Assembly (NCBI GenBank): GCA_036784855.1
Contig: JAZDSV010000038.1
Coordinates: 62,001-126,000 of the forward strand
Source: Aphelidium insulamus
Taxonomy: Eukaryota; Aphelidiomycota; Aphelidea; Aphelidiaceae
Length of the DNA: 64,000 nt
Reading direction: 5' to 3'
Each line of letters begins with the position of its first letter. Within the stretch, counting starts at the first letter, position 1. Both the position numbers and the translations under genes were made by a program. Shown piece by piece: positions 8,736-61,314 of this stretch. Under the pieces are notes generated by a model that was given only the letters and a program-made list of their open reading frames with translations, had not been told where the DNA came from and did not search any database.

Positions 8736-9276
8736 TTAGGAACAGCTGTTGCCCCAAATGCGCTCATCATAGTCCACAATGAGGTGCGGTGACTGGCGGC
8801 CACACTGTGACAGCCACCCGCTGAACCCGCCAGTCAGCACGTACACCTTCTGCTGCTGTGTGGCCTGCTTGCTCTCCTGCAGTGCGCGTGCATACTTTCT
8901 CGCCGCCGCCGGTCCGCGTACCTGTGACAGCCTGCACCAGTGATTATGTATATAAGTACGACATTATATATATATATGGACGTGCATGCAGTGGAATATT
9001 ATACGCGGCACGGCAGAGTGCTCGGCCAGCAGGTGTGGCAGGCCGCGCTGAGTAAACTCTGCAGATGGAGAGTGCAGGGATCCTCGAACGCGTCCCCCTG
9101 CCACGTCAGCGTCCCGCACGTCCACCACCAGGTAGTCCTGTCTAAGTGTATTAAACAGTGTGTACATGTGTATGATAAAAGCGCGCACACACAGCATAAT
9201 AGACCCACCCCGGGGTCATGGTGGGGTCCATGAGCCAGCTGGTCAGCTCGTGGGCGCTTATACGTTCAACATCCAT
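8736..9276 (-). CDS. Small Cdc25/Acr2-like rhodanese-fold phosphatase (3 exons)
   Basis: A 139-residue protein. Exons 9276-9209, 9141-8986, 8931-8736. Intron 2 uses a GC donor (gcacgt), which is the only junction giving the family reading FHCMLSQVRGP. The active site HC(X5)R is intact. It is preceded by DYLVVDVRDADVAGG and followed by VYVLTGGFSGW, the order of rhodanese-fold dual-specificity phosphatases related to yeast Ych1/Arr2 and plant Cdc25-like arsenate reductases. Whether it acts on phosphotyrosine/threonine or arsenate cannot be told from sequence. It shares a short divergent promoter with the gene starting at 9591. Confidence 0.88.
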
Positions 9277-9590
9277 TATTGTGTGTGCAGCGTGTTTACA
9301 ATGGTTGAACAATGAACATGCAGCTGATTGTGGCTCCACGGTGTGTATGCCACCAGTTAGGTGTCAAGCCAGACAGCCAGTTGCGAGGGTGCGCGCTCAC
9401 TAAGGCATCTATTCATTCGCGTCCATGGATACACAGCTGATTGGCGGGGCGGGGCTGTGGATGCCGTGCATGGCTGCCGTGTTGCCTGCCCACTACAGCG
9501 TACATATATCGAGAGTGAGTGATATGTACACACACTTACCCTACACTAGATACTATACACAACGTACACATACTACATACTACATATACC
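9277..9590. promoter_or_regulatory. Divergent intergenic/promoter region
   Basis: About 310 bp lie between the starts of the phosphatase (minus) and the GPI-type protein (plus). No gene-like frame is seen. It presumably holds both promoters; no specific element is resolved. Confidence 0.3.
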
Positions 9591-10268
9591 ATGATGAGCT
9601 CGGTGATCATGATCTTGATGGCTGTGATGGGCAATGCCCGGGCAGACACGCGCGTGCAGTGGGGCGGCAGTGCCACGGCAGCCACCACGTCTCAGGTTCC
9701 GCTGGCCACCACTCCCATCACTCTATTTGCGGCGGGTGGCGGCGTGTCCAGCACCCAATTCCTATACACTAAACTGCCAGCGGCTAAAACTGTGCCGGCC
9801 CCGCTGGTCACCGTGTCGCTGATTAATACGGCGCTGGGTGTGGACATTGAGCTGCAGACGGGGTTCGATGTGGTGGCGCAGACGTGCTCCTGCTACTGGA
9901 TCGACATGGCGGCACTGGCCAAAGAGTATAGTGCCGCCGCTCTTCCCGATGACAGTCGGTATCAGCTGCGATTCCGTGGACCGGCCACCGAGTTGGCCGA
10001 TGCCATGGACACCAGCAGTGGCCTGTTTGGCTTGAAGCGTCAGTATGATGGTACGCCTCTGCCGCGGGTGAGCGCGCCCGCACCCGCGTCGGTGTCATCA
10101 TCGACTTCTACCGGGAAGGCCTCCACGAACAATGGCAACAACAACAGCAACAATGACGGCACTGTCACCACCACCGAGTACACTTCCAGTTCCTCCACAG
10201 TGGCCATTGATATGGGCAGCGTCATGCGGGCGCTCTTCTGTGCTCTGGTCGCTTCTGCTCTGATCTAG
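9591..10268 (+). CDS. GPI-type surface protein, paralog 1
   Basis: One exon, 225 residues. N-terminal signal peptide (MMSSVIMILMAVMGNARA), then a domain with GFDVVAQTCSCYWIDMAALA and RYQLRFRG, then a Ser/Thr/Asn-rich low-complexity stalk (about residues 155-205). It ends in a hydrophobic tail (MRALFCALVASALI) without a cytosolic segment, the pattern of a GPI-attachment signal. The core recalls the fungal Kre9/Knh1 Ser-Thr-rich GPI family (Y.L.F after a W/Y-rich strand), but this is only a weak resemblance. A paralog lies on the other strand at 11233-11892, across RanBP1. Confidence 0.75.
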   Translation: MMSSVIMILMAVMGNARADTRVQWGGSATAATTSQVPLATTPITLFAAGGGVSSTQFLYTKLPAAKTVPAPLVTVSLINTALGVDIELQTGFDVVAQTCSCYWIDMAALAKEYSAAALPDDSRYQLRFRGPATELADAMDTSSGLFGLKRQYDGTPLPRVSAPAPASVSSSTSTGKASTNNGNNNSNNDGTVTTTEYTSSSSTVAIDMGSVMRALFCALVASALI

Positions 10269-10320
10269 ACCCCAATATATATAATATATAATATAATACA
10301 TATATATATATATATATATG
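10268..10320. repeat. AT-rich simple repeat
   Basis: A (TA)n tract directly after the stop of the GPI-type protein, between it and the RanBP1 3' end. Confidence 0.7.
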
Positions 10321-10381
10321 TTCACTCATCCACAGAGAATTTATTCAATGCCACTATGGACTACAATGTGCAGTGGTTCCG

Positions 10382-11053: not shown

Positions 11054-11232
11054 GCTGGTTATGCTAATGGTGTTGTGTGCGGAGTGTATTAACGGCAATG
11101 CCACTTCCAACCGTGACCCTGACCTTACGTTTATGCTTGCATTATTTACATCGCCTGTTAATAGATAAATACAAGCTTGAATGCATGTTCTTGTTGTATT
11201 AAATACACACTCTAAAACATCCCCAGCTGCTA

Positions 11233-18961: not shown

Positions 18962-19836
18962 ATGCCGCGCGTGATCGTGCTTGGGCTGAGTGGCGCGTCG
19001 TGCAGGCAAGCTTGTGCTATTCTCGGTGTGTGACACCTAGCCTCCCGCTAACCTGTGCAGCGGGAAGACCACCGTGGCGGCTGCCCTACATGCTTTAGCC
19101 ACCGACCTTGCGTGCCGCTTGTCACCTGTGACGCGATGCACCGTCCTGCATCAGGACAACTTTTTCGTGGTGCGTCCATTATGGGTACAAGGTCTCTTGA
19201 CACGTACCTGTGCGGCAGACTACTGACCGGGTGCCGCTTGCTGCTGACGGCACGCCCAACTGGGACTGCGCTCAGGCGATTGATGCCGACGCATTCCTGG
19301 CAGAGGTGCGGCGAGTACGCGCCTGTCTGCTAGACGATACGCCTGTCTATGCGCACCAGCGGCAGTATTGCATGCACACCCAAGTGGACTCGGCGCTGGT
19401 GGATGTGGTGACGCGGGAGGCAGCCACACTGCTGGCATCATTGCGTGATGACACGGGCGCTGTAATCCCTGTATCCCTGCTCATCATTGAGGGCTTCTTG
19501 CTCTTCTCGGACCGGCACATTATGGACGAGTGCGATATTAAGCACCTGCTCCACGTGGACCTGGACACGTTGGTGGAGCGACGCGCCGGCCGTGTCTACA
19601 CCGTGCAGCAGGCACATGACGATCAAGAGGTGCCGTGGTCCGACCCGCCATACTATGTGCAGCGCGTGGTGTGGCCCGCGTACATGGAGCACCACCGGCG
19701 CTGGCTGGATACGGCAAACAGCGAAGACAGAGTGGCAGAAGACGGCGTTATTGTGCATCCGGCCACTGTCTCTCTAACGCAGGTTGTGCACCGCTGTGCC
19801 GAGGACATTTTGCGCTGCTGTCACACGATACCGTAA
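18962..19836 (+). CDS. NMRK1: Nicotinamide riboside kinase-like (3 exons)
   Basis: Exons 18962-19005, 19061-19169, 19219-19836; 256 residues. Intron 1 uses a GC donor (gcaagc) and its removal completes the P-loop GASCSGKTT. Further landmarks are HQDNFFV (catalytic Asp), VPLAADGTPNWDCAQAID, LLIIEGFLLFSD and the lid-region Arg residues. The DG..NWD..aID signature separates nicotinamide riboside kinases from uridine kinases. The enzyme phosphorylates nicotinamide riboside to NMN in NAD salvage. Confidence 0.87.
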
Positions 19837-19963: not shown

Positions 19964-20045
19964 GTCGGCATGGCCGAGTGGTTAAGGCGATAGCCTCGAA
20001 AGCTATTGTGCATTGCACGCGCAGGTTCAAGTCCTGCTGCCGACG
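19964..20045 (+). tRNA. tRNA-Ser(CGA)
   Basis: 82 nt with a 7-bp acceptor stem (GTCGGCA/TGCCGAC), anticodon stem ATAGC/GCTAT around loop CTCGAAA (anticodon CGA, reading UCG), a long class II variable arm, and T arm GCAGG-TTCAAGT-CCTGC. It carries A and B boxes (TGGCCGAGTGG, GGTTCAAGTCC). A T-rich stretch follows as a Pol III terminator. An identical gene lies on the other strand at 62327-62408. Confidence 0.97.
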
Positions 20046-20167: not shown

Positions 20168-23100
20168 TTATGAGGTCGTGGCAAAGAGTAGCTGTAGCTG
20201 TTCAGTCATGTGCTGCCCACGCGCTTCCTGGATCAGCTTGTCGTCACTGGGTTCCAGGCCAAACATTCGCAGATCGTCCAGTTCAGGCACGCTGGATACA
20301 ATCAGCGATACGTAGTCGGCCTTGGTGCCGTTTGCAGGTATGACTAGAAGGTGTCAGCAATAGTTTGCCAGTTAATAACATACCGACAGACTTCCACAGT
20401 TTGCGCATGGGAGCGCGCCCAGCCACCGGCAAAAGTTCTGAGATAAATTGAACTCATTTTAATACAGGGATATTCTTTCTGTTTTACCTGGCGTGAAGTA
20501 TGTTGCCACCAACGCTGCCAGCGAGTGGCGATCGGCGGCAACGTCAACTTTTCCGCCGTATATGGTGGTCAGCACCAGTCCGCGGACAGCGAGCCAGTCC
20601 AGCGCTTGTCCCGCACACCTTTCAACCGTTTTCTGCGTATTGTGTAGATCAGAAACAATTGCAGTCGGATCAGCGCATCTGCACAGTTACCATCAACACT
20701 GACGCTGCCAGCCGGAGATCCTCGGTGGAAAATTCATAAAATTTGGTCCATCCGTGTGGAACATAGTGACGCCGTTCTTGGACGACGGCATGGAACCACG
20801 ATAGCAAAAACAAAAGGTGTCCATGGGTGGCAGATTTCGAAATTAGCGAGTCGTCCCAGAGTTCGTACGACCGAAGCAGATTGTTTCTCATGCCCGGTGC
20901 AGTCTCAACTACCATTTTCTCGCACTCTTGCGCAATGTAGGCTGGCAACTGACGACCAGGTAGCGTCGTCATGAAGAGTCGGAACGAGGAGTTAGCGCCT
21001 GCAACTAATACTGATCGTGCCCCGCGGAGCCATTCCACAGCCAAGTGGACATTCTTTAATGCCAACCACTTGCCGGCCTCCTGGCACTGTCGAAGCAATT
21101 CGCTTGCGGCCTCAAACTGTCCTTGTCCCAGAGCAATCTTCAAGTTGGTTAGAATCATTCAACTCTGTTGAGAACTAACCTCACAATAATTGTCTGCACC
21201 GACAGTTCCGTTCGCTACTTTTGCTATTTCCAGAGATGGATCTGCACCGGCGCCGGCGATAAATAGAAGCGGCCCTTTCGATTCCGTAATCATTTGCTGA
21301 ATGGATAATTCTCGTTGCTCGCTCGACGACTCGGCCAGCATCTTTATCGATTGACTCAGGACTACATCGTAGTTAGTACGCAAAATAATTATAGTATCGG
21401 CGGGGTACCAAAGTGGCATAAGTCCGCAGGCCGTAGCGCGCTCAAAAGGCACACTTGGAGGCCGAATGTGAGCTGAGTGGCTACAGCTGGGAGCTCCGCC
21501 AGAGACAGTGAACGCATCCATGCACTCCACATTGCTTCATTGTCGAGTGAAGCAGATTGGGCCAGTTCGGGAAACAAAGACTACAATGTGAGACTACATG
21601 TGGTCAGTAAACGTGTTTACATGCCAGAAGGTACGACAAGTCACGTCGAGCTTGTTCCTCCTTGACCCACACAGGGGCTTTCGATGCACCAGATCTCGCT
21701 CCGTCTCCGGGTACCTGTGTCAGGAATAACGCGCACTGATGGTTAAAGGAGTGTGGCAACGATTTGGCAATGAATAAGAGAGCGAATGCAGCGCGGTGTC
21801 GCTCAAAGAGCCCTTGTCGGATTTTCTTGAATGCCATGCTTGTCAAACGGCTGGTGAGCTCGCTACATCGCTGTGCTGATTCCGCCGCCGATATGCTCCC
21901 TCGTGTTAGCAAAGCGCGATCAATGAGAGTGTCAAGGAATCGCAGTCCAAACTGATACGTCTTGTCAATGGCGGACAGGGACCCGAGTACAGCAAATATT
22001 GATCCGGCTCGCGCACCAAACTCGGTATACTGGTTTCGTTCAACGTCCAGAGAATTCTGCAGTTCGATGCTCTCCTGAAGTGCTTCCGAAACAGCAATGC
22101 ACTTTCCTTTCAAGTCAGCCAACGAATTCATGAGTTCCGCATTCTCGAGAATGTTTCCAGTGGCGCTCGAAAGCTGTAGCAGGATAGAATCCTCCAATTC
22201 AACAAGATTCTGGCGAAGCTTGTCTCGGCGCGCAAACACTTCCTTGGTCTTTTGTTCCAGATCTGGTCTTTCACGGTCCAGCACCAGTCCAAGAGCGCGC
22301 GAGGATACCGCTTCAACTGTGACGGAGCAATTAATAAGAGTAAGCACACCTTCGAGGTATGGAGGCAGCGCCGACATTGTCTCGCCGCTAAACAGTATCA
22401 ACTTGAAATTCGGGTCCGCGTCGACAAATTTGTCGGATCCTAACGGGAGGGCGGAGCGACTTCCCGACTGGATGAAATCCCGCTTGATCAGTGGAATTAG
22501 AATTGGTGCGATGCTAGATGTCGACACGTTGGTTATCACGAGTGTCTTGCCAAATCTGATTGTCAATTCCAGTGTCTTGACAATGTTTGGGTCCATTGCC
22601 ATTATAACTTGTGGTTTGCTGTCGTGCGGTCGGGCCAGATACCACTGCAAGCACTGGCCTGCCGGATCAATTACGAGTGGCGTACTTGCACAATTCAAAA
22701 GCATCGCGGCCGCTTCCAGTGATCCTTGATCTTGCCACAGACCCTGCTCCTTGAATGCGAGCAGGTCGACATCGCTGCACAAGAAAGGGACCAGTTGGAC
22801 TGGAAGCTTCGACTGCACCGATTTCTCGGGATATTGGCTTCGCAAGGAATACGGGATTTTGCTCAGGTATACAATATATGACGCGACAGCCAGAGAATCG
22901 AGTGGCAAATGTTCGAGTTGAGAATCGATTTTGCTTACCGCGGCTGCCCAACGACTCTCCTCGTCTGCCAGTCGATTAAGTAGTGTCTCAGCGGCAATGA
23001 CCGATTTCTTTGCTTTTTCGAGCGCATCCGCCAAGACACCGACTTCACCCGTCTTTTTCGAAAATACATCACGCAGGTGAACAAATTTGTCTTCCAGTCT

Positions 23101-26100: not shown

Positions 26101-29100
26101 GAATTTGATACGTTCTCCATTTGGTAACGTCATCAAATGATTGTCGTCCAACACCGAGTTCAACGCCTCAATCCATTCGGGATCGATATCACCATCGAAC
26201 AAGATCCAGTGTTTTCCGCCACTACGATCGGCTTGCACCGTTCGTGCGACTTTGGTAAGGACACCATCGTGCCACTCGCGTGTATCAAGGTCCATGTTTC
26301 CCAAGAGAGTTTCCCTACATCAATGTAAACAACATAGTCACAGGCACACTTGCCTGGAAATAGCCTTCGGACCGATAGCATGTACAGTTACTTTCACCGG
26401 TGGATCCATGGCTCCAAGCGCCAAACGCAGTGATTGCCACAATGTAGATTTTCCGCAGCCAGCTGCACCAAATATAACCACGCCCATGCGCTGAGAAAGT
26501 GACATGTACAATTGTTGGACTTTCATCTCGAAATTAGGTGCCAATTCAATGTTTGAGTCATCAGAAACTGCCATTAAGGCTTTAGAAATCGCTGCGTTTC
26601 CGTCGCTTGTAGCAGGAAGCTTTGGAAATATGCTCGACAGAAGTTTGTCATACACCGCTAAATCCTCCTTCACAAGCTTCGGCAGCAACGAACTTCTCAG
26701 AGCATTAACAATAGCAAGGGATTCGTTGCGTCCCACTGCGGACTTGAAATTGATGCCAGCAATTTCAAGTGTGCTCTTGAAAGCGCGCAGACCCTAGAGT
26801 GTACATATTAAGTTTTAAAGTTCTAAAAAACAAACCTAGTCATACCCAGTCATAATGCTGCATTTTCGACATCTGAGCCTTGCAGTCACGATAGAACTGA
26901 ACTGTTGATTCGGCAAGTACCGCCGCTTCCGTGAAACCTTCGCTTGTCAGAATAACTTTGGCGATATCGACTACATCCGGCGCGGTCATAGCCATCGGTC
27001 GAAAGAGCTGCTTCAAATTGTCGGGCAATTCCTGGCGGCCACCGTAGTCCTTTGTCGGAGGATTAAGCGTCACAAAAACACCAGAATTAGGATCGAGCGA
27101 AACCGTAGTGCCATTGAGCAAAATAGCATCTGCTTTTTTGCCGAGTCCATGCTGAATCGCTTGAATTTGTATAGAAACAGCTGACAAAACGCCTTCTTCC
27201 AGTCGATTGAATTCGTCGAAACAACCCCAGGCCCCCGTTTTGATGATTCCGGTGAACAGTCTCCCCATGCTTTGGTAGTCCAGACCTTCGTCGCAATTGA
27301 ACACCAGGACTTGCCGACCAAACAAGCTACCAAGGGCTTTGACGCTCTCCGTTTTACCAGTTCCCTATCTGGTCAAATTTAATCTAGAACAATGTATTCA
27401 GCTTTACCGCAGGGCCAAACGGGTTTCCTCCAAACCCATTTGCGATCGCTTGCGTAAGCGTCAAGAAACAATTGTCGATGAGTTTTGTGTGAACGAGCTT
27501 TGGTGCGTTTCCTTGATACTCGAACGAATATGAAAATGATCCAGCACACACTCGAATAATTGGCGCTGATTTGGTATCGGGCCAGTAAAATCTGATCTGT
27601 CGAAACCATTCCCAATGATCAATCGAGGATACTTTAGCTTCGCTTAGGATTCTCACAATATCAAGTAATCGGACCACTTCGAACGTCAAATTTCTCCTGC
27701 AAGCTTCTGAGATAATCGATGCGGAGCCGTTGATTTTGTTGACGGAATCTAAACGCGATAGCAATAATGATTTGACTGATGAAAAATCTCCTCGATCCTT
27801 CAAAATGCATTCTTCGACTTTCGCAGTAAACTCGATTGCCAGAGAGAGACAAAGCACTTGTTGTGGAAAGCGACGCAAGTCAAAAGAGGCGAGACAGGGG
27901 CCAATCATATTCAACAAAGTTGAGCCGAGAGTTCGATCCAAATCGCCCAGCCATACTTCAACATTACCGCTTATTTTGACCGGATTATTCAACAGCACTA
28001 CTTCTCCGTCCCCGCTGATAACCGCTGATATATCCCCGTTTGAGTTAAACTGAACGGACTCTACGCCGGAGAATAATTTTTGAGGTGAGACTGGACCACT
28101 TCCGGATTTTGTGCCTGACCCAGCACTTCCAACAGATCATCATCGCCCAGGAAATAAAATCTGGCGAACTTGCTACGGGTCGATTCCAAATATTCAGAAA
28201 GCGCCTTCTGAGACTTTTCCAGCTGCTCTGTCAAGGATGGAAGCAGTTGATCGATGTTCGGATATTGCAGTAGCCGTGAAAGACGACAATCGGCTCGTAA
28301 ATATTCCATGATTCCACAAAACTCGGCACTAGCACGCTTAAATGCCGAGTAAATGGTAGTCAGTCCTTGCACGCTAGTGTTGGCAAAGACTGGCTGTAGA
28401 TATACCCATCGTCGTTGAATGTCTTGAAAACTATGCAATGCGCCGTCAAGATTTGTTAATTTCGCCTCCCACATTCGAAGGACGTCCACGAAATCTGGAG
28501 ACTTGGACGAATCTAGTTCCTTAGTAGAAAAATTATCAGAGTGACTATACCTATAATGCTCTGCAGGAGTGACTGATTCTCGCCGAGCTCTGCAAGCGTA
28601 GCGTTCCAGTTCGTTACAATGTGGAGGTCCAATGCTTGGTTCTTTAATGATCGATCAAACTTCACCAGGCTAAATACCGCCTTGGCCGACCAAAGCTCCA
28701 GTTCCTGAATGCCTTGTCGAACAGTGAATTCCGCTTTGGCTCGCGAGTTTAATGATTGTATATCGGAGAGCTTTTGCACAATCGTGCTAGTGCGATCAAG
28801 CACTTGCTCGACAGTTAAATCCTTCACCGCAATGCGTCCATCAATCCCGACTAGCGAATAGAAGGCGGCCCAGTGCTCGGGTGCCCATTGATCTCCAAGG
28901 ACATGGCGCAACGCAGGCAGAATGCCTTCGAGAAAATCCAGACGCTTCAGTACGCAGTTGGTCATGGCATTTGCGCCACTTTCGGTATACTGTCGATGAT
29001 TCGAGCGCCATTTGTTCAGGAAGTCTTTTAGCTTACTTTCAACCTTCAGCCGATGCCCGAGCCAATCATGAGAGCAGAACTCGTGATACTCGCCGATAAA

Positions 29101-32100
29101 TTGGCCATAAGATTCCCATAGCTTATTTTCACCCTTTACAAATACATCAACTCGCTTCATAAGCGTATTTTCGATCTCCGGTAATCCAAAGTAAGCCGAT
29201 TGCTGACGGTACGATTCAAAGTTCTCTTGCAGACGGCGCCACTCGTTATACAAAGCTGCCATATCGGCCATCTTTTTGCGAGCCGCGTCCACATTATCGG
29301 CATCCGACCAAATGGGCTTCAACTGGACCCATCGGCTCTCGAACGCCTCTACCTTGTCTCGATGTGCGGCGATTTGCTTTCCCAGGTCCAGTTTAAGTGC
29401 AGCAACCTGCTCTTGAATCGCTTCATGATTGCTGGCGAGGGATTGTTCAAATCTTTGCAATCGAGTCAGAGTAGCAGTAATGTCAAGCCCAACAGTGGTG
29501 CCGATCATTGATCGCATTATCTTAGCAAGCTCTTTTGCACGATCCATTGTCAATGATATTGATGCCAACTCTGACGAAAGTTCTTGATGCAGAGAATTTG
29601 CTTTTCCTATTTCGTCTACGCTATTCAACTTGATCGCCAGTGCCGCGGTTCCTTTCGCGACAAATTTGTCCACACTGGCCAGGATCTGTTCAGTGTGCTG
29701 ACGAAGGGCGGACGCCAGCGTTTCAAACAAACGGTTGAGGGCATCATCGAGATCGCGGCGCAGCGAAATTGTCGACACTTTGATGCAACCGATAAGAACC
29801 TCCATGGGCAGAGAATCCAACTCCTTTAGCTTTTGTTTCACGGAGCGAAACCCATTTTCCCACTGCTCAGCGCTACCCATCGAATTTAGCAAATCGTTCT
29901 CAAAATCAGCTGGCACAGTGCACCATGCCAGCCAGTCAGAAAACTGTTCGTGGGCAGCCGCCAGTCGCAGAAAAAGTTTTTCAGCAGAGTTGTACACTCC
30001 GGCCAGGATCGATGCATTGGCTGTCAGCAGCCGGGGGAAAGGCAATGAAATGTTGTTGTTAGCGGAAGCGCTAATGGATAAACCGCGGAACTGCAGTGGA
30101 ATTTGAATGAAACGCTTTACATCAGTGTAGTACTTTGCACGAATCTCCTCGACTGTTGGCCGCAAATGAATCGCCCCTACAGTTGTGAAATGATTAACAA
30201 TATGTCGAGCAAGTCTATGCACCCACCATTTTTGACACAGAGCTCAGCTTCAATGTCGATCGCTAGTCTTTTATCGTCGTATAAATCCCGCAACTGCTTA
30301 TCATCTTCGGATGCTTCACTGCCCTGCTGTTGCTCTTCCAGCGACAACGTGGACAGCGCAATCACGCCCTCTTTCCACTGAATCTCCAAAGCTTTGTAGA
30401 TCTGACACTCCCAGTGCTTGATCCACGGTGCCATCATTTCATCTGAAAAGCCGAATTCGTTCTTGACATCAGCGACAACCTGTCGCATCTGGCCCAGCGT
30501 CTGCTTCCACTTGGCCTGCTCGTGAAGAAGGCTGGACTCCATTAGCCGCAGCACCAGAGTCTTTAGAGCGAGATGTTGCTGGCGCAACAAACTGTTTGTT
30601 TTCAACAGTGCTTGCATCGCCTGCTGCATGCGGGCGATATAGGCGTCAATGTCGCGCTCATTTAGACCTCAGTTCCGGACACGGCGGCTGGAGGCTGCTT
30701 GACAAGACTCTCGAAATTCATGGCCAAGCCCAGCAGCATTGGTTGCTGTGATGGAATCATCTGAGAGTCCATAGTGTTGTAGACGTGGGCAATCTGTTTG
30801 AGCACGATGCCGTAACGACTGAACTGACGGGCATGCTCGGCAAACTTTTTAATTGCCGGCGGGATAGTGAACCCGCTCATGGACGATATTTGACGCACGT
30901 CGCGCAGCAGCGTGACCAGCTGATCGCTGAAGCGCACGTCCAGACGCCCCGTCTCAGAATCGAGTTCCATCCATTGGCGAACGGTGGCTAGGGTGAACCC
31001 TTTCTCGCCGCCACTGACCAGCGAGCGAGCATCACCAAGCCAGCTCGTGAACTCTTCCTTCTCCGTTGCGGACACAGCCGCCACTAGGTCTTTGAATTGT
31101 GATTCGATCTGTTCCCATCGCGGCATGTCACCCAACGATTTTCTGAATGAAGTGACAGCAGCATCCAGTTTAGGTTTAACAGCAAAACACCAGCGCAAAA
31201 CTTCGACACACGGCGAACAGTCCATCATGGACGGGGCCTCCTGCAGGTGTTACATGTTTGTGTTGAATGAACTGAACACACCTCTCGAGCCAATTTGCGG
31301 TCCAGCTGCGACTTGTAGCGCTGAATCATCTGAGTGACGTTTAGCAGTGCTGTCTCTCGCTCCGCAGCTGCATAACAATTAAACTAGCTTTTCATAGGAT
31401 CGCTTGAACGTACCCAGTGATTGCAGAACCAGCGGACAGGAAGTAATTGCTGAAAACTGTTCCCACTCACTGATCCAGGCCAACGGGGTGTCGCGAACAG
31501 CCGACAAGCGTCCGCGCAACTTGTCCGCCTGTCCCAGAGCAAGCACTTGCAATTGACGCATGCACTTTTCGTGTGCCACCTGCGGCGGTTATCAATATCG
31601 CTGTTAACACGGCTCAGATGATGATCCTACCAGCCAGGACGGGTCACGGTAGCCATGGTGCACGGCGAAAGGGTCCACATTGTTGAAATGTAGAAAATAT
31701 GTGCTATCCTCGTCACCGCCATTCAGTAGTGCAATTTCATGGCTCAGCGAGCGCAGTTCCAATATCTGCACGCAATTTAGAAAGTACACTTGCGCTCTCA
31801 ACGAGAAACTCACATCTGCAATACGTTGGCGCCACTGTTCCAACAGATCCGCGGTGATGGACACAGTTTGGTTCTTTGGCCATGCGCGATTATTCGGTGC
31901 AGATGGAAATGTCCAGTAATTGTCTGTCAACTCGTGCAGAGCGAGGCCCCAATTCTGCATCTGCCTCGCGCACGGTACGAGCACTTGGCGCACCTGAACA
32001 GAAGGAATTGGTAATATGACTAGTAGATAAAATATGAAACATACCGCCGCATCCGTGGCTGTCCATACGGGATGAAGTGTCGGCGCAGCGGTCTTGTCAA

Positions 32101-32996
32101 AGCCGGCACGCACGCTAGCTGACACTGCAGCAATAACGGCGCTGTCCATTGCGCAAATTGTCTGCTGTATTCGTGCCGGCTTCACCAACCTATCGCTCTG
32201 CCACAGCTGGTCCAGCACATCGGCCCACACACCGCTCGTCACATCATTCAGCGCCTCAACGTCGCGAATTCTGTGTTGCATTGATTAACACTGGAGACTT
32301 TTAACGAACTTGACATACCCCGCAGTTTCTGCAAGAGGCTGAGCGATTTCACCGAGACTTGCGTGCTCGGCAGCGTAGCGTCGGACCTCATCAACTAGAC
32401 TGCACACCATCAGGCCGTCAGTACCGGACAGCGCATCCTTCCCCGGGGCGATCCACGCCGACAGTACACCAATCAGCGGCGCATTGTTCTCCTTGTCGCC
32501 GCCAAGCGCCGGCAGATACACGTGATGAGCGTCCGTGCGGAGATCATCAGTGACGGCAGTGGGTTCCACCACAGTCCAGTGAACAGCATCGGCAAAGGTG
32601 TGCCGGGTGATGGGCGCAGCAGCGGCTGTCAGTGTACGCTTCGAGAAGAGCACCAGGCGCCCGGGTGCAATCACAGCATCGTGACCATCATCGCCCAGCC
32701 ACGACACTCGGACTAGGTTACCGTCTCGACTCAGCTGCGCGGCAACAGTTTAATGTGTGTGTGTGTGTGCAATACCCAGCGGTCGTGCGCACGGACCAGC
32801 TTCACGCAGAGACATCGCGGCGTATTGGCACTATTGTCCAAGAACTGTGACACCATCGGACTAGCCGAGATGGCCGCGCGGGCAGCGTCAGCGTCTGTGG
32901 CAGTGTGGGTGCATGCGTGTGAGACATGCTGTAGTAGCTGGACGCACCGGCGGGCGGAACCAGCGCCGACAATGCCACGGCCAGCAGTGCTTCCAT
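20168..32996 (-). CDS. DYNC2H1: Cytoplasmic dynein-2 heavy chain (about 20 exons)
   Basis: Retrograde intraflagellar-transport motor. Exons (minus): 32996-32948, 32894-32776, 32734-32319, 32270-32045, 31993-31814, 31765-31631, 31579-31414, 31367-31282, 31240-30227 (with a splice ambiguity near 30663), 30176-28551, 28512-27408, 27364-26846, 26793-26354, 26314-21625, 21580-21409, 21361-21180, 21137-20700, 20632-20488, 20437-20384, 20343-20168. Tail, linker (RFYFLGDDDLLEVLGQ), and P-loops AAA1 GPAGTGKTE, AAA2 GAAGCGKST, AAA3 GPESSGKS and AAA4 GRSGSGRRK (a degenerate loop, as in other DYNC2H1) are present, with stalk coiled coil and AAA5/6 (FYEFS, IYGGKVD). Two introns have GC donors. One A is missing in an A-run near 28083 (HLKKLF motif). 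About 3,980 residues; the ~300-residue C-terminal domain of animal DYNC2H1 is absent. Confidence 0.93.
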
Positions 32997-34368
32997 ATTT
33001 GTGTTAAATACACTGGATCGTTAAATATGCAAACGGTTGCTGCACATTAAGCTGCCGTGAATACTTAAGCTTGCATTATATGTGACAACGCGCACAACAT
33101 TGCAGTGCTCGTTGAGTTATTGTTCTGCTTTAGTCCGTCTCCGGTAGTTGTAATGTTTTTGTAGCCATAAACTTGCAGTAGGCTTCCACCCGCCTATTGA
33201 TAGTGGTTAATAGTTGTTATGTACCACCATGAAAGCTGTGCATGTCATACATAGGTAACCCATCCATATAACGTAAATATAGTGCATATTATGCGCACTA
33301 AATCTCCTGCCACCACAGGTTATCCTACATCAAATCGAACTATGACAAAGCTAGCACAGTGATAGCACAGTTAAGCAAAGAAATCAAGTACACTGCGAGG
33401 CTGAAAAGGTAGCTGTTCGCAAACCCAGCTAGCAATCTCTCCATGAAGCAGAATTCATGGATATTTGTAATTGCATTTTTTATCTTTAAGTTTATGTGGC
33501 CTTCCAATATGCTGATTCCTACAAGCGGCGAATTCGCCCATCTTCCAACGAGAAACTTCCATAACCAGTTGCAGTCAACTCGCGCCCGCTATAACAGCCC
33601 ACTGTAATATTAGCGCCAATATTAAAGGCATTTTCATATATGTATGTATATATATATTTTGTCGGAGCAGAGTTGGAGTACGTACAGCCGGTTTACTCCT
33701 CTCTCTGTCCTTGGTCCAATCAGCCTGCTGTAAGCTGTCTGTTGTAAGAAAATACAATAATAAGAAAAAAACACAACATGTTCTCTAGAGACGCCCCGAT
33801 TGCTGGATGTTGCGTGGATAGCCGAGGTAGTGATACATGTTAGAAATATGTCAATAGTTCGCTGCGACACGATCCGCGTAATAATACACATGCTGGTATG
33901 ATGCTGCGACCTAGCCACTGATCCAGACTACACGGACGGTCGCTGCACACGTCCCTTCAACCAGATTTTACCCGATTTGGCGTGCCTACGTCAGAGACTT
34001 TTCCGTGATTATGGTAGAATGTTTGCTTGTCAACATCATTACTCACTCCCAGATGGATGATCATGTTGGCAAGCACTACTTGAGCATCGCAATATGCCCA
34101 GGCCTTACAGGTTGAACATATTTTTGAGACCAGCAGTCTTGTTCCCTTTACATAGCACATTAAGCTAATCTGGGCCTGAATGTCACCATGTATGTAGCCA
34201 CGGGATACGCGCTAAGGATAACCGTTGCATATGTACTTTCGAAATATTGACATGGTGGTTTCTCTATATGAAGTTGTGGCATCAGTTCGATACAACGCAT
34301 GCGTGCACCGGAAGGCGCTTATGTATAACAGACTAGTGTTCTAACTCTACAAAGCCGCCACTATTACA
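32997..34368. other. Longest gene-free stretch (1.37 kb)
   Basis: Lies between the divergent starts of DYNC2H1 and the prolidase gene. Open frames are short, overlapping and AT-rich with no protein-like features. No tRNA, tandem array or terminal repeat was seen. A short TA-rich run occurs near 33639-33658. Confidence 0.4.
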
Positions 34369-36313
34369 ATGCAGCTGCAACACCGCGAGTACCGCGCCGC
34401 CCAACATCGCCAGAATGTCATGGATGCTCTACCAGCAGATGCCATAGTCGTCCTGGCCGGTATGTCCTTCTCATAATATATATGTCTGCGTATGCCTGAC
34501 TCAATGGTTAGGTGAGCGCGTGCACACCCGCCCCGGCACAGACGTGGAGTTGCCCTTCCGGCAGTCGTCCGACTTTTTGTACGCTAGCGCACTTACGGCA
34601 CACTGCTGCTTATCTAATACACCTTGACGCGCAGCTATCTCACCGGCATTGACACGCTGCCCGACTGCGCTGTGGTGCTGGACGTGGCCGCGCGACACAC
34701 CCACCTGTTTGTCTCGCAGCTGTCGGCCGAGGACCGCGTCTGGATGGATAATGGAGTGCCGGGTGATAGCTTGCCGAGTGCTGACGACTTTTCCGTGGAC
34801 AGCATGCACGTGTGGAGATGGCGTGCAAACATGTACGCTTATCTCTATGTAGCCATGCCATCGGTGACTTGGTGGCGGTTGTTCGGGGCTTGATGATGGG
34901 TGGCGGCGGCGGCGGCGGTTCACGGCGTACCACTGTCTACACTCTGGCCACGTCGTCGCTATCTCCGGAGCGCTTGGCGGAGTTGGGCAACGATATCGTT
35001 GTCAATGTGGATGAGTTGCCCAAGGCGTTGGCCACTGCCCGCATCATCAAGGACGAGGTGGAAATTGAGTGGATGCGCCGGGCAAACGATTTCAGTTCGC
35101 GTGTATGTGACTTGGAATATTGTACTACATACTTGGAATATTTTACTTATGTATTTATATAATACAAATTGCAGGCCCACTTTGATGTCATGAAAGCTGC
35201 GGCTGCCGGGGCCATGCTGAAGCACGGCACGAGTGAACGGCTTTTGCAGGCCGTGTGGTACGGCCAGGTCATGAAAAATGGGCAAGGTTTTCTATTTGTC
35301 CATTGAATGTAATATGCGTATTAATTCCAAGTTTTTTAGCTGTACCGGCCAGGCATACTTGCCCATCATTGCTTATGGGAGAAATGCCGCCGTGTTGCAC
35401 TACGGCCGAAACAGTGCCGACATTCCCGGTCATGGTGATTCTTTTCTCCTTGTAGACGCTGGCAAGTTCATGTTGATTGTTGTTTGTTCTTCATTTGAAC
35501 TACCAAGGTGGCGAATACAATTGTTATGCGGCCGACATCACACGGACATATCCCGTTGGCGGCAAGTTTACGGCAGATCAGCGCGCCATCTATCAGATCG
35601 TGCTCGATGCACAAAAGGCCGTCATCGGTCGTATTCGAGCTGGTGTGCAGTGGGAGGAGCTACATCGGCTGGCCACCCGCATAATATGTGAAGGGTGTGC
35701 AATTATAATCGGCTTCAATAGCTAACAATTGACAATTCAGACTGGTCCAGGTCGGGCTGCTGAAGCTGCACAATGGCCATGAACAGTGCAGCATAGACGA
35801 GCTGTGCTGGAAAAAGTTTGCTCCGCAACTATTCTTCCCCCACGGCCTTGGTCACTTAATTGGGTTTGTATTCTGTATTCTGTATTCCTGATGCACATTT
35901 TTCTATTCTCAATTCACATACATACTACAGGCTGGATGTGCACGATGTTGGCGGGTATCCAGATGGAGTGACGAGAATCGACGAGCCTGGTAGTCGGTAT
36001 CTGAGACTGCGCCGCACACTTGAAAAGGGTTTGTCGGTAGCATATGTACATTTGCCAAACTATACATAGGAGCTGATATCTAACAGGCTTCGTGGTGACA
36101 GTGGAGCCGGGACTCTACTTCATTGAACCATTGCTATTCCCTGCTACGCCCAGTGCGGCACACAGTCACGTGGACATGGACATGGTTAAGCGGTTCATGC
36201 CACTCGGCGGTGTGCGCATTGAGGACTGTGTGGTGGTGGAAGCTGAGAGCTGCCTCAACCTCACCACCGTCGTCAAAGAGATTGCCGACATTGAGCAGGC
36301 AATGCGCCGCTGA
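34369..36313 (+). CDS. PEPD: Xaa-Pro dipeptidase (prolidase), 10 exons
   Basis: Exons 34369-34459, 34512-34578, 34635-34811, 34853-35102, 35175-35281, 35340-35461, 35508-35694, 35741-35863, 35931-36028, 36087-36313; 482 residues, the normal length. Introns 5 and 6 have GC donors (gcaagg, gcaagt). The M24 metallopeptidase fold is complete: [27 protein letters not shown], the metal-binding Asp pair in LLVDAG and [27 protein letters not shown] (His), TVEPGLYF (Glu) and [10 protein letters not shown] (Glu). It cleaves dipeptides with C-terminal Pro/Hyp in the cytosol using Mn(II). Confidence 0.96.
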
Positions 36314-47200: not shown

Positions 47201-47722
47201 ATCGGCCAGCGTGGAACGAGATTCCCTCGGCGTGTGGATTCGATGCAAGTACATATATTGTTGCTATTCACCATGTCCTCACTGTGGGCAGTGCCGGATA
47301 CACTGCTGGAGGAACTGACAGGGGGTGGTGGTAGTCTTGATGGTGGCCTGAACGCTGCGGGCAACGCATTGGTCTTGCTGGCGCACAACCATATCCTTGG
47401 TGCCAGTGACGACCTGTGCACTGAGCATCGATACGGAACTCGTAGCCGACCGCCTGTGCTGTATCTGTATGGCAAATTCTATTCCGGAGCTGGCGGATAT
47501 GTTGGAAAAGTTTACGCAATGATGAATGAGCTGCTGCGCCTTGCACTGGATGCCATCTTATACTGTGGTTGCGATGAAGGTTGCCTGGCGTGTACGTTTG
47601 AACCATGATGATGTTAGTTACACACTAACCACCGTGCAGGCTGCTCTGGTCGCCGCGGCTCTCTACACAATGTAGACAAGCAATCTGGTGTACTGATTTT
47701 AAAGTATTTAAGCGTAAGTTGA
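44205..47722 (+). CDS. HRQ1: Hrq1-type DEAD/H helicase with DUF1998 (10 exons)
   Basis: Exons 44205-44786, 44834-45316, 45364-46115, 46162-46313, 46365-46525, 46568-46829, 46879-47082, 47125-47244, 47292-47591, 47640-47722; 1,032 residues. The intron after exon 8 has a GC donor (gcaagt). Motifs: YHHQTEG (Q), TSTSSGKS (I), FPTKALAQDQ (Ia), FTNPDML, LDEVHVY (II), CCSASIDNP (III), VFCQTRRM (IV), CTNALELGIDVG (V), QQAGRAGR (VI). The C-terminal DUF1998 region has a four-Cys cluster (CGCDEGCLACC). Hrq1 is a 3'-5' RecQ4-like helicase of fungi, plants and protists involved in crosslink repair; animals generally lack it. AATAAA overlaps the region just after the stop. Confidence 0.93.
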
Positions 47723-53847: not shown

Positions 53848-54565
53848 TCACATGAAGTGGAGGAGCAGCCCAGCGCACTCGGGCTTCTCCTTGTCTGGCA
53901 CATAACACTCAAAGCCGCGAATAGTCTCCTGGTCAATGTCGAGTGTGGCATTTTTCGCATCTTTCGGCGGACGATCCGGGTATGAAGCCACCATCAGGTC
54001 CTTTTCGTCGGCATACTCCATACCGTACACCTGGTCGTCGCCATAGAAGACGACCATATTGTGAATACCGTTGGGGTTGACAGCCATTTTAAGCTCTTTA
54101 TAATTCGTCTCGTCGGCGGGGAAGCTGTCGGGTTTTTCATCCGCACCGGTCTGCAAGCTTCGAGTACCGTCCGACGGTGGCAGTCCCCAGTGGGCGTGCT
54201 TATCATCGTCGGAGCACACACTGCCCACCATCACCACACGCTCATCTTTGTAGTTGATGACGCGCAAACGTGTGACATAGGCATCACCCACGCAAATGAA
54301 CCCGAAAACATTGGCCGTGTCGCTGGTGTTCTTGCCCAGCCAGTCCGTGGGAAAGGGGGACGTGATTGTGACTGTAGCAGTGGTTGGTGCTGCTGCCGTC
54401 GCGGCGGTTGGCGCTGTGGCTTTGTGGCGCGTTGACTACAGATGGTGTAGCGGCGGTCGGCGCTGCAGCCGGGCGTTGACTAGATGGTGTAGCGGCTGGA
54501 GCCGGGGCACTCGCATAACAGTGGCCAAACAGAGCGGCAACAGTGATGGTAAACGCGGTCTTCAT
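53848..54565 (-). pseudogene. Secreted family B, copy 1, frameshifted
   Basis: ATG at 54565 starts a signal peptide (MKTAFTITVAALFGHCYA) and an Ala/Pro/Thr-rich spacer. The frame shifts by one base near 54425 and continues as TDWLGKNTSDTANVFGFICVGDAYVTRLRVIN to the stop at 53848-53850. The core (CxxDAYVTRLR, VCSDDDKHAHWG, FYGDDQVYGMEY, RGFECYVPDKEKPECAG) aligns with copies at 57200, 58462 and 61445. The single indel lies in a repetitive Ala/Thr codon stretch, so an assembly error is possible; if so, the gene is functional. Confidence 0.6.
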
Positions 54566-57103: not shown

Positions 57104-57199
57104 AGTAGTATGAAGTGTGCCTTGCAGATAATGACGTGCACAACTGAATAAAGTATTTGGAATGAATGAATTTGTTATATATTACAACATGCGTGCTCA

Positions 57200-57949
57200 C
57201 TATGCGTACAGCAGCGTAATTCCCGTGCACTCCTTCTTTTCCAAGTCGGGATAGTAGCACTGAAAGCCATAAACACGACTAGGCGGGGGAGCTGCGTTGC
57301 CTGAGTTGCCACCCTTAACGTTTCCGGCCACCGAATTCTCGGTTTTCTCGTTCAGATACTCCACACCATACACGTATTTGTCATCACTGTGAAGAATGAC
57401 ATTAGTGACACCGTTGTTGGGGTTATGGGCCAAGTTTTGCTCCGCGTAATCACCGCCCATGTACTCCTGCGGATATCCGGCCGGGTCATCGTGCGCCCCA
57501 GTGATTGAGGGTGTGACATTGTCCGCCGCGTAGCCCCAGTACGCGTACTTGTCATTGTCAGAGCACATGGCGCCAATCATCACCAAGTGGTCGTCCTTCC
57601 AGAAAATGGTGCGCAGGCGAGTCACATATGTCGCGGTTGGACACTGAAACGTGACGGTCGCACCTTTACCTGACTGTGGTTGTTGGCCAAACCACGGGGA
57701 TGGCGTGGCTGTAACTGTTGTTGTTGTTGCTGCTGGAGTTGGAGTTGGCGTTGTAGTTGCAGGTGGCTGACTTGGTACCGCCGGCGGGGTAGTAACAGGG
57801 GGAATAGCAGCGTTAGCAGCATCGGTAGCAGCAAACGTAGGCAACGGCTGGCATGCTCCATTAATCGGGACACATCCCTGAGCGTGGCACACGGCCACCA
57901 ATGCAACCAGCATCATGGCCACACTACGTACAGCATTCATCGCACACAT
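57200..57949 (-). CDS. Secreted family B, copy 2
   Basis: One exon of up to 249 residues (Met at 57949 or the in-frame Met at 57937). Signal peptide (SVAMMLVALVAVCHAQ), CVPINGACQPLPTF Cys motif, a Pro/Thr-rich spacer of about 60 residues, then the family core CPTATYVTRLRTIFWKDD, GAMCSDNDKYAYWGYA, ILHSDDKYVYGVEYLNE, and YGFQCYYPDLEKKECTGITLLYA. The last Cys pair and aromatic C-terminus recur in all copies. It may be a lectin-like beta-fold by its V-T-R-L-R/I-G-x-x-C pattern, but this is unproven. A GATCGCGCCAAT element lies at 58054-58065, about 105 bp upstream. Confidence 0.8.
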   Translation of the reverse strand: MCAMNAVRSVAMMLVALVAVCHAQGCVPINGACQPLPTFAATDAANAAIPPVTTPPAVPSQPPATTTPTPTPAATTTTVTATPSPWFGQQPQSGKGATVTFQCPTATYVTRLRTIFWKDDHLVMIGAMCSDNDKYAYWGYAADNVTPSITGAHDDPAGYPQEYMGGDYAEQNLAHNPNNGVTNVILHSDDKYVYGVEYLNEKTENSVAGNVKGGNSGNAAPPPSRVYGFQCYYPDLEKKECTGITLLYA

Positions 57950-58180
57950 ATGTCAACGCAGACTGTTATGAACAAGTTTCAAAGTGTGATTAAGCGTCAG
58001 CGAGCCAGTCAGCCCGCTATTTATGGCCGATTGATCAATGTCGATCTCGGCAAGATCGCGCCAATGAGCGCGAAGCGTTCGATCCAGCTGCGCTGATTGG
58101 TTGATGATTGCCAAATAGATCTGGCTGATTATTAGTGCCTGCTAATTGAGCCACAATTAACTAGGTAAAACGAAGTTTAT

Positions 58181-58350: not shown

Positions 58351-58461
58351 TCGTATATGTAGGGTTGAACAAAATGTGATGTACCAACTTTGCAAACTTT
58401 CGAAATACATTTTTAAAACGCGTTCACAGAGTATGTATATATATTGCAATTGAGAGAGTGA

Positions 58462-59139
58462 CTAGGCGACGTAGAATCGCATGCCGACGCACTGGGCCGT
58501 ACTCAGGTCCGGTACATAGCATTCGAAACCGCGGACCAAGTACGGAGAGCCGGGCGTTGTTATACTGCTGGCACCATGGGGATCAGGTCCAGAAATGGAC
58601 GGGGAACCAGCTTCATTGTTGTACGTCATTCGGTACATCTTCTTATCATCATAGTAGAGAGTTACGCCACTGACACCTGTGGTGGGATTGTTTGCAAGCC
58701 AGGTCTCGGAGTAGTCGCCTTCCGGAAAATTCCCCGGCACATCATGACCGCCGGTAGTGTAGTACGTGGCACCTGATGTGCTTGCGAAACCCCACTGCGT
58801 GTGATCCACGTCAGTTGCACACGACACACCGATGGACTGGAAGTGATCATTCTTGAATAAGATTGTGCGGATACGTGACACGAAATCATTGCCCGGGCAA
58901 ATATAGCCAAATATGTTGGCCGGGTTGTTGTCGGGACTTCCGCTGCCAAACCATGTACTGTTGGACCATCCGTTTCCTAGTGGCGGCGCAGATGCCGGTG
59001 CAGTAGTCGGTCCTCCAGTGTAAAGTGGCAGTTGAATGCACAGTCCTGTCGCGTCCGTCTGACATTGGGCGCGACATTGTTGCGACAGGAGTACAGTGGC
59101 CACAATGGCCGGCAGCAGAAGAGAAGTCCAGGAATTCAT
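58462..59139 (-). CDS. Secreted family B, copy 3
   Basis: One exon, 225 residues from ATG 59139. Signal peptide (SLLLPAIVATVLLSQQCRA), CQTDATGLCIQLPLY, short linker, WFGSGSPDNNPANIFGYICPGNDFVSRIR (shared with copies 1 and 4), VSCATDVDHTQWGFA, LYYDDKKMYRMTYNNE and the terminal RGFECYVPDLSTAQCVGMRFYVA. A longer open frame upstream lacks a sensible signal peptide. A GATCGGGCCAAT element is at 59309-59320, about 170 bp upstream. Function unknown. Confidence 0.8.
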   Translation of the reverse strand: MNSWTSLLLPAIVATVLLSQQCRAQCQTDATGLCIQLPLYTGGPTTAPASAPPLGNGWSNSTWFGSGSPDNNPANIFGYICPGNDFVSRIRTILFKNDHFQSIGVSCATDVDHTQWGFASTSGATYYTTGGHDVPGNFPEGDYSETWLANNPTTGVSGVTLYYDDKKMYRMTYNNEAGSPSISGPDPHGASSITTPGSPYLVRGFECYVPDLSTAQCVGMRFYVA

Positions 59140-59485
59140 ACGGCGGACTCTGTTGGCAGGGAATAGATAGTTGGGAACTACAATAAATAAAACGCTATTG
59201 ACAATGAAAGAGTAACGAAGAGTACAGAGAAGAGCAGAGTGGAAAGCAACACTTGTAGGCGTCTTTATACGCCGCGCCCAGCATCCCGATACGATCAATG
59301 ATCGCCGTGATCGGGCCAATGGAAGCGCTGGTCAAGATCGCCAGCATCCATTGGTCAATTGGGGATCCTTCAGGTACATATCTTAATGTGTGCATATATA
59401 CCTGTATGAAGTGTGTTTTTTATATACTTGTAATTGCAATGCCTGCATGTCTAGTCAGACAAATCTTCTGCAATACAAATCCACT
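59140..59485. promoter_or_regulatory. Divergent promoter region
   Basis: Lies between family B copy 3 (minus) and TSG101 (plus). It contains the CCAAT element described for copy 3; no other feature is resolved. Confidence 0.3.
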
Positions 59486-61314
59486 ATGGATCAGCAACGC
59501 CGCCAGCAGCTAAAGACGTTTTTGTCCGGGGCAAGTGCCCACTTCTCCTACATACACATATACATACCATACACTCACACTGTGTGCATGCAGTACACAC
59601 ACTCGTCCAAGGCGGCGCGGGACGCCGAGAAACTGTTGGCTGCGCATGGCACCCTGCAGCCGCGGCAAGAGACCTACAGTATGCCTCTCACTGCTTTGTA
59701 CACCCATCCACAGGCCACACAGTGCCTAACTGCACCTCCCACGGCAGCATTCGATGATGGCAAGACCATGCTGGCACTCTGTCTGCGAGGCACTCTGCCG
59801 TGTCCATACCGCGGCACCGTCTACAACATACCGGTGGCGATTTGGGTGCCGCCGCAATTTCCGCACTCAGCCCCCATCCCATACGTGACGCCCACGCCAC
59901 AAATGGTCATCAAGGTGTCTCAGCATGTAGACGGTGCCGGGCGCTTCTATCACCCGTACCTGGCTGGGTGGCGCAAGGATGTATGCGATCTGCATACATT
60001 GATACTATGTGTACATAGTGATATTGCTCTGTACTGCCGCTTACAATGCATATGCACGTCAATACTTTATAATACTTTATAATACTAGTCTATGTATGAA
60101 CTAGATGCTAATAATTCTAGGCGAGCTCGCTGGTGCAAGTGGCGGTCACAATGCAGCAAGTGTTCTCTGCCGATCCACCAGTCTACTCGAAGCCTGTGAA
60201 TCAACAGTCTCCGCCGCCGGCGCCGCCATACTCTACACCACAGTCAGCCAATGCGTTCTCCTCCACACAGCAGACATCGCTGTACGGACCGCTGCCTAGT
60301 AGTTATGGTGGCACCTCGTCCTATACACCCGCCAACAGCGTCTCCACCGGCACCACCAACTACAGTGGCACTGCAGGAAGTAATGGCGCATACGGCGGCT
60401 CTGCGTACAACAACAACAACAAAAACAACTCCACTTATGGCCCCAATAATAGCGCCTATTCATCCGGATATTCTCCTGCCCTGCCTGAACTGTATCGCAC
60501 CCCGAACACTCAAGCGACATCTACCTACAGCTCTTACACATCTCCATCATCATCCTCCCTGTCATATGGCGCCCTGGCAATGCCCACGCCCTCTTCCATG
60601 GTATGCACCACCTGTTATATGCAACTACTAGATTAACTTAAATTGGTGTGAAGTTACCGAAGCAACAATCATCCGGGACCACTACCGCCGCTAATCAGCC
60701 ACAGCAGCAAGACAACTGGCGCCAGGCGGAGAAGGAGTCGCTGGTTTACGCGGCGTCCCGAGCACTGTCTGAGCGGTATCAGCTTTTTCACCAGACACTG
60801 TCATACGAGATGCAACAAGAGCTGGACATCAATAGGCAGCTGGTGGACAGCGGCATGGCCCTAGATGAGGGTATGGCGGTTTTGCGGCGGCACAGGGTTC
60901 GTTCGTTCGCTGTCTAGTTTGTATACACTACATTCTGTAATATATGTCCAGGAACGGTGCAAACAGGCAGCCACTGTGTTGAGGGACGCAGCTGCCAGCG
61001 CACAACGGCAAATCGACGAGGTGGAGCGGTGTCAGTCCGCGGTTAATAGCCTCGCAGTAGATGAGCTCATTGTGGCGACCCGGTCACTCTATCGCCAGCT
61101 GCTGGACGCCAAGAGCGACGATCACGCCATAGAGGACACACTGTACTACATGGGCAAGCGGTTCCAAGGCCAGAGTGCCGCACGGCATAGTGGGGGTGAT
61201 GCAGTGGACGCCGTGCTGGCCACGTACTTGAAACAGGTGCGGTCGCTGGCCGCAGAGCAGTTCTTTCGCCGCGCCCTGGTCAATGAGATTCAGTCGCGCC
61301 TGCGAGGGACGTGA
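59486..61314 (+). CDS. TSG101: ESCRT-I subunit TSG101/Vps23 (5 exons)
   Basis: Exons 59486-59530, 59594-59980, 60121-60600, 60654-60896, 60952-61314; 505 residues. Intron 1 has a GC donor (gcaagt). The N-terminal UEV domain (CPYRGTVYNIPVAIWVP, APIPYVTPTPQM, HVDGAGRFYHPYLAGWRKD, QQVFSADPPVY) lacks the catalytic Cys, as in ubiquitin-binding UEVs. A long Pro/Ser/Thr/Tyr-rich linker and coiled coil follow, then the C-terminal steadiness box (AIEDTLYYMGKRF, TYLKQVRSLAAEQFFRRALVNEI). It sorts ubiquitinated cargo at multivesicular bodies and acts in abscission. Confidence 0.94.

Follow-up and report, generated by a model that had tools for sequence, protein, structure and literature searches.

The window considered here is a stretch of 64,000 nucleotides (nt) of the Aphelidium insulamus genome (contig JAZDSV010000038.1, positions 62,001 to 126,000), and belongs to an assembly (G000) whose 169 contigs total 17.95 Mb. 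Among its predicted genes are those for a Cdc25/rhodanese-type phosphatase, an NMRK/uridine-kinase-like protein, DYNC2H1, the prolidase PEPD, the helicase HRQ1, and a TSG101-like protein. A preliminary description of the window had placed in these genes eight introns beginning with GC rather than GT, and had judged such GC-AG introns to be about ten times as frequent as the usual 1%. All eight donors were found at their positions, a separately trained gene finder that was free to choose the base at +2 picked the same eight, and the tenfold excess holds in both the window and a larger sample of the genome. GC-AG introns are thus predicted to make up about 14-15% of the introns in the sample, or roughly one in seven, and very probably a normal U2-type spliceosome accepts C at +2 in donors whose other positions pair better with U1. 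The gene labels RTEL1, NMRK, and TSG101 are putative assignments, drawn from the preliminary description and Pfam domains.

Introns were predicted with a two-strand gene finder, consisting of Markov models of coding, intron, and intergenic sequence together with donor and acceptor matrices, and trained from long open frames. The training set comprised the window and loci L001-L021 (171,114 bases loaded, minus one all-N locus), and was non-random; it takes in the five small nuclear RNA (snRNA) loci (approximately 15.6 kb). The base at +2 was held uniform for rounds 1-4 and learned afterwards. In the last uniform round, the donors called were GT 216, GC 51, GG 12, and GA 8; the converged model, with +2 free, yielded 295 introns with a median length of 50 nt, divided into 243 GT, 44 GC, seven GG, and one GA. 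Lying at a chunk edge, one GT intron entered the count twice, both in this total and in that of the window, where the free model called 94 introns (GT 78, GC 14, GG 2), or 93 once the duplicate is removed. GC donors constituted 15.3% of all GC and GT donors under the free model (block bootstrap 11.8-18.8%, 23 blocks) and 14.0% under a fixed-weight model (9.7-17.9%, 23 blocks). Introner-like repeats were absent from the 295 introns: only two similar pairs arose at E<=1e-3, one of them being the doubly counted intron and the other a match of 14 nt in inverted orientation.

The excess was examined by offering the finder one alternative donor at a time, each at a fixed weight of 0.15. Under these equal terms it called 41 GC, 19 GG, and 11 GA introns, and only the GC set had the surroundings of a donor, with G at -1 in 31/41 (GG 4/19, GA 2/11) and G at +5 in 34/41 (GG 10/19, GA 5/11). 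The total model score, which was 10616.8 with GT alone, rose only with GC (10688.4), and fell with GG (10575.9) and GA (10456.2). When every donor was forbidden in turn and the cost recorded in nats, the GC share at costs of at least 0, 1, 2, 3, 5, and 8 nats was 14.9, 16.0, 16.0, 15.2, 16.5, and 9.5%; at a cost of at least 5 nats, 71 GT and 14 GC donors were left but no GG or GA donors, and at 12 nats or more a single GT donor and no GC donor. By these decoys, and by the genome-wide motif counts given below, the predicted frequency of GC-AG introns is above chance.

For three of the genes in the window, PEPD, HRQ1, and DYNC2H1, junctions could be compared with protein profiles built from 120/120 listed PEPD, 60/120 HRQ1, and 45/120 dynein relatives, the PEPD and HRQ1 relatives having been retrieved with a GC-spliced query. 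The comparison covered 32 introns, and DYNC2H1 was represented by one of its two gene pieces, the second (30662-32996, nine exons) being left out. For each intron, all frame-keeping choices of a donor and an AG acceptor no more than 36 nt away were scored, and an intron was called resolved if at least 3 bits separated the donor classes beginning with G; this tally was made by eye, one case (47588) lay at exactly 3.0, and classes beginning with another base sometimes scored higher in the profile tables. Of the 32, 20 were resolved (GT 15, GC 4, GG 1, GA 0) and 12 were not. The four GC introns are those with donors at 26353, 34806, 35462, and 47245. The best matches bearing a species name were at 39% to Amoeboaphelidium protococcarum for HRQ1, 46% to Mortierella for PEPD, and 33% to turkey for DYNC2H1, none of these being a close relative.

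Homology backs six of the eight donors originally listed as GC, while that at 35282 is tied on its profile and that at 59531 is weakly supported. In the phosphatase gene, the intron at 8932..8985 (minus strand, CAT/GCACGT, 54 nt; the slash marks the exon-intron border) is called by the gene finder and favoured by relatives in the Protein Data Bank (PDB): splicing at GC gives FHCMLSQVRGP, whose score to yeast YGR203W (3fs5) is 56.6 bits where a GT-only splice reaches 44.4, and the closer PDB relatives prefer GC by 6 to 12 bits. The intron at 19006..19060 (plus strand, CAG/GCAAGC, 55 nt; delta 6.3 nats) lies in the P-loop of the NMRK/uridine-kinase-like gene. DYNC2H1 has two GC-AG introns on the minus strand. 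That at 26315..26353 (CAG/GCAAGT, 39 nt) scores 258.1 bits with GC and 250.6 with the best GT choice; that at 21581..21624 (CTG/GCATGT, 44 nt; delta 9.2 nats) scores 63.5 bits with the best GC, 62.8 with GA, and 55.7 with the best GT, so that GC has a lead of 7.8 bits over GT, of only 0.7 over GA, and scores slightly below three variants that do not begin with G (up to 66.9 bits). Elsewhere in this gene, at 21408, the profile prefers a GG donor lying one base upstream and paired with an acceptor 20 bases on; the junction may have been mis-set.

PEPD, on the plus strand, contains both of the originally listed introns at 35282..35339 (TGG/GCAAGG, 58 nt) and 35462..35507 (CTG/GCAAGT, 46 nt), as well as an additional, ninth GC-AG intron at 34806..34852 (CAT/GCACGT, 47 nt). 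The profile supports GC at 35462 (217.3 bits, GT 206.2) and at 34806 (GC 112.6, GG 108.9, GT 106.1, with one non-G variant at 110.2); at 35282 GC and GT are tied (217.3 and 217.7 bits, and a TT variant reaches 222.8), and the GC-spliced motif is common to the nearest relative, P0121 (67% identity), and to P0122. P0121 (340 aa) is an unbroken protein across six of the PEPD introns in the window (35103-36313), and intron content thus seems, from the sequences compared, to differ strongly between relatives. In addition, DYNC2H1 and PEPD may be adjacent both here and in the relative that carries P0121 and P0001, a dynein match.

In HRQ1, the intron at 47245..47291 (plus strand, GAT/GCAAGT, 47 nt) scores 88.7 bits with GC and 85.3 with the best GT; no Pfam domain spans this junction. 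A further GC call in HRQ1, at 47588..47639 (plus strand), was refuted by its profile (best GT 41.0 bits, GC 35.9), and the neighbouring GT donor at 47592 yields CGCDEGCLACCSG at the end of the gene. Another GC call, at 34315, was disfavoured (72.4 bits, as opposed to 80.1 for another splice). Finally, the TSG101-like gene has its GC-AG intron at 59531..59593 (plus strand, GGG/GCAAGT, 63 nt; delta 5.5 nats, Pfam UEV), and here support is weaker because read-through stays in an open frame. Homology therefore backs nine of the 14 GC calls in the window, including the weak cases at 35282 and 59531, which corresponds to 9/93 introns, or 7/93 if those two are set aside. The preliminary description had held that no GT choice would keep both the frame and the conserved motif at these introns, and this was too strong: an in-frame GT exists for several of them, although it mostly scores worse, by 7.5 bits at 26353, 7.8 at 21624, 3.4 at 47245, and 11.1 at 35462. 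It had also counted five of the eight introns as beginning with gcaag; six do.

Ten GC introns, picked from 20 for their proximity to a known domain, were compared by Pfam score with the product of a GT-only model, and in six the GC splice was preferred, by 3.2 to 70 bits. These gains were seen in NMRK (PRK; 29.1 bits with GC, 22.8 with GT only), the piece of PEPD holding both 35282 and 35462 (M24; 145.3 and 112.6), the C-terminal part of an RTEL1-like gene (152.3 and 82.2) and its N-terminal part (141.9 and 102.2), PP4R3 (EVH1; 54.9 and 46.4), and TSG101 (UEV; 100.3 and 97.1). The comparison did not discriminate for the esterase IAH1 (L019; 59.6 and 59.1), HRQ1 (32.5 and 32.5), or ACOX (L021; 157.7 and 157.7). 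The GT-only model split the RTEL1-like gene (L006), one of whose resulting fragments matched no Pfam family, as well as a gene at L017:3194, bearing out in part the expectation that callers confined to GT would break such genes; in contrast, the stops that this model introduced into the RTEL1-like helicase and PP4R3 are artefacts of the finder, which does not check for stop codons spanning a junction.

In mammals, GC donors centre on AG/GCAAGT. The GC donors of the sample show a comparable dependence on context: of the seven positions other than +2 in CAG/G.AAGT, they match an average of 4.57, whereas GT donors match 3.49 (p=1.3e-7), in agreement with the extended U1 pairing that had been proposed for them. 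The difference is located at -3 (C in 25/44 GC and 65/243 GT donors, p=1.6e-4), +3 (A in 36/44 and 129/243, p=4e-4), +4 (A in 17/44 and 49/243, p=0.011), and +6 (T in 35/44 and 154/243, p=0.039), and no difference between the 44 GC and 243 GT donors was detected at -2, -1, or +5. The tetramer AAGT follows the first two bases in 12/44 GC donors but only 8/243 GT donors (p=2e-6). As the donor matrix shared by both classes prefers T or C at +4, the A found there in GC donors is not imposed by the model. The share of GC among donors increased with the number of matches at the other seven positions, from 18/224 at one to four matches, to 17/49 at five, and 9/14 at six or seven. When +2 itself is counted, the two classes have similar numbers of U1 matches (GT 4.49, GC 4.57; p=0.5).

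We also searched all of the assembly for introns by motif alone, using AGGNAAGT (AG/GNAAGT) followed by CTAAC 12-42 bases on and AG a further 4-20 bases on. Near intron ends no 5-mer was more enriched than CTAAC (ninefold), but CTAAC or CTAAT occurs in only 40/243 GT and 9/44 GC introns, and the search therefore covers a small part of introns. With A at +4, it returned 32 rows for GC, representing 25 distinct donors, along with eight for GT, two for GA, and none for GG. With T or C at +4, where a few rows are copies of one sequence, there were 28 rows for GT (21 distinct donors) and 14 for GC. A control with the pattern run backwards gave 10 GC, 17 GT, 10 GA, and 8 GG rows with A at +4, and 31 GT and 12 GC rows with T or C; the fairer control, in our view, is the count of GA and GG donors in this setting, which covered A at +4 only. 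Of the distinct GC and GT donors, GC made up 25/33 with A at +4 and 14/35 with T or C (Fisher p=0.004), the T/C counts not being clearly above those of the backwards control.

The 5' end of U1, and U6, which the preliminary description had named as places to look for changes, show none in the copies found. Four U1 genes were found, each starting AUACUUACCUG and canonical, with scores of 42-44 bits where the Rfam gathering score is 69.5; the single U6 found is likewise canonical and contains ACAGAGA. Only the best candidates were scored, and further copies of either may be present. None of the four U1 matches obtained with up to three mismatches has a changed base at position 7. At +4, T is present in 42% of the GT donors of the whole sample, C in 30%, and A in only 20%. 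In yeasts, U at +4 accompanies the loss of METTL16, of SNRNP27K, or of Met141 in SNRNP27K, as reported in PMC10581693. Simple loss of METTL16 or SNRNP27K does not account for the missing A at +4 here, as both genes are present: a METTL16-like protein has NPPF, and an SNRNP27 homologue (L024:1459-2256, minus strand) keeps KYRQYMN and the methionine aligned to human Met141. Following this methionine, the tail reads TKKHLLNRPPPPQQQQ where the human protein has RKGGFNRP, and no RKGGFNRP-like end was found in the bases read downstream. The diverged tail, as predicted from this locus, remains a lead for the preference for T or C at +4.

Very probably, these observations reflect a U2-type spliceosome of the ordinary kind, its U1 and U6 canonical, that tolerates C at intron position +2 in donors that otherwise pair well; such tolerance would concentrate GC donors where the other positions match CAG/G.AAGT. 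We infer that the GC donors most likely descend from GT donors through T-to-C mutation and that, being almost neutral where the context is strong, they were kept, with C drifting to fixation at approximately 14% of introns. The frequency of GC in the gene models, its dependence on context, and the canonical copies of U1 and U6 are read from the sequence itself, and from these we infer that the junctions are spliced as predicted. There is a slim chance that they are not, and that the GC excess is mainly an artefact of gene-model choice at introns whose true junctions are GT, retained, or shifted. Several of the introns do have in-frame GT alternatives, and the finder overcalls, being wrong at 47588 and disfavoured at 34315; but the equally weighted GA and GG decoys were fewer and lacked donor features, the motif search is independent of gene models, and the domains of NMRK, PEPD, the RTEL1-like protein, and PP4R3 gained 6 to 70 bits with GC.

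A number of further results weigh against the main explanation. The decoy rate of 11-19 implies that there may be false calls among the 41-44 for GC, and subtracting the decoy mean of 15 from the 41 GC calls lowers the estimate to approximately 9%; at a ban cost of at least 8 nats, GT 19 and GC 2 are left (2/21). Homology covered 11 of the 14 GC calls of the window, all but those at 5406, 12804, and 54514, and one of the introns resolved by profile, that at 21408 in DYNC2H1, was GG. In four of the ten Pfam comparisons GC had no lead of more than 1 bit (three ties, and one opposed by 3.5 bits, namely the phosphatase at 8985, whose Rhodanese score is 31.0 with GC and 34.5 with GT), and IAH1 was slightly opposed by its PDB relatives (64.3 with GC, 64.7 with GT). 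In the motif search, only GC with A at +4 (32 vs. 10 rows) clearly exceeded the backwards control, unlike GT with A at +4 (8 vs. 17) or GT and GC with T or C (28 vs. 31 and 14 vs. 12). Lastly, the duplexes predicted for GC donors are weaker than those for GT donors (-3.1 vs. -4.8 kcal/mol).

A second explanation of the donor contexts is that perfect pairing with U1 is selected against, since U1 must be released for U6, and that C at +2, or T or C at +4, is a deliberate weakening of the duplex. The predominance of GC over GT in the AG/GNAAGT context (25 vs. 8), the rarity of A at +4 in GT donors (49/243) in favour of T or C, the equal totals of U1 matches when +2 is included, and a weak negative correlation (rho -0.15, p=0.02) between the matches that GT donors have to the left and to the right of the border are all consistent with it. 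Nevertheless, we regard it as unlikely: the same pattern is expected if T-to-C changes are neutral and tolerated wherever the context is strong, duplex energies are not equalised, the correlation is missing in GC donors (rho -0.02), and the +4 contrast is built on counts that do not exceed the backwards control and that have no GA or GG decoys. The 25:8 excess fits both drift and the avoidance of over-stability, and so cannot separate them in the present data. It is unlikely that this lineage selects against perfect U1 complementarity, with AG/GNAAGT mostly having C at +2, GC being preferred there and not just a defect that is tolerated, and the number of U1 pairs at 5' splice sites being fixed. 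Far less probable is pressure from base composition, by which a high genomic G+C content would push T to C at donors. Such a link has been put forward for three of 61 species, those richest in GC-AG introns, Aureococcus and Micromonas pusilla among them (PMC3033335), but the same source finds the correlation weak outside those three, and in our sample G+C is 51.4% overall, 38.6% in introns with GT donors, 42.0% in those with GC donors, and 44.4% in intergenic sequence, with exons at 55.5%.

GC-AG introns account for 1.3% of the 2.46 million introns surveyed in PMC3033335, in which mammalian GC donors are described as a distinct class of 5' splice site, and canonical GT-AG introns are reported at 98.3% in animals, 98.7% in fungi, and 97.9% in plants (PMC7072748). 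By their GC and AG ends and their preservation of frame and protein, the introns predicted here would belong to the ordinary U2-type GC-AG class, albeit at approximately 14% as opposed to 1.3%. In exceeding 1% by far, they resemble the GC-AG introns of Aureococcus anophagefferens and Micromonas pusilla, which stand at 39.6% and 22.2%, respectively, and have been linked to high G+C (PMC3033335); however, those genomes are G+C-rich (69.5% and 65.9%, respectively; PMC3033335), and our sample, at 51.4%, falls outside a high-G+C class of genomes well above 60%. Euglena gracilis, with 659 GC-AG and 11,527 GT-AG conventional introns, or 5.4% GC-AG of the two (PMC11170887), likewise exceeds 1%, and its GT consensus, GTGTG, lacks A at +4; it differs in that its GC-AG introns are prominent only in having G at +5, whereas here GC donors surpass GT donors at -3, +3, +4, and +6. 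The sample is unlike the GA/GG-donor type of Eurytemora and Oikopleura, given one GA and seven GG donors among the 295 introns, and two GA and no GG genome-wide in the AG/GNAAGT context. Judged by title, no paper was recognised as dealing with this genome, which is a weak negative. On the sequence data, the genome joins the GC-AG-rich ones already known, but in it base composition appears to fail as an explanation.

Abundant GC-AG introns would thus occur without the high genomic G+C proposed as a factor in the known GC-AG-rich genomes, the authors of PMC3033335 having already noted that factors beyond G+C must exist. The genome, compact and with canonical U1 and U6, lends itself to measuring how the base at +2 trades off against the other donor positions. 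When this genome and its relatives are annotated, GC donors should be admitted, to avoid split genes and broken conserved motifs. The window has two other features of note: a pair of tRNA-Ser (CGA) genes, at 19964-20045 and 62327-62408, have equal Rfam scores and lie on opposite strands, and four predicted minus-strand proteins (53848-54435, 57200-57952, 58462-59331, and 61445-62149) are alike, sharing, by eye, a VTRxR-like stretch.

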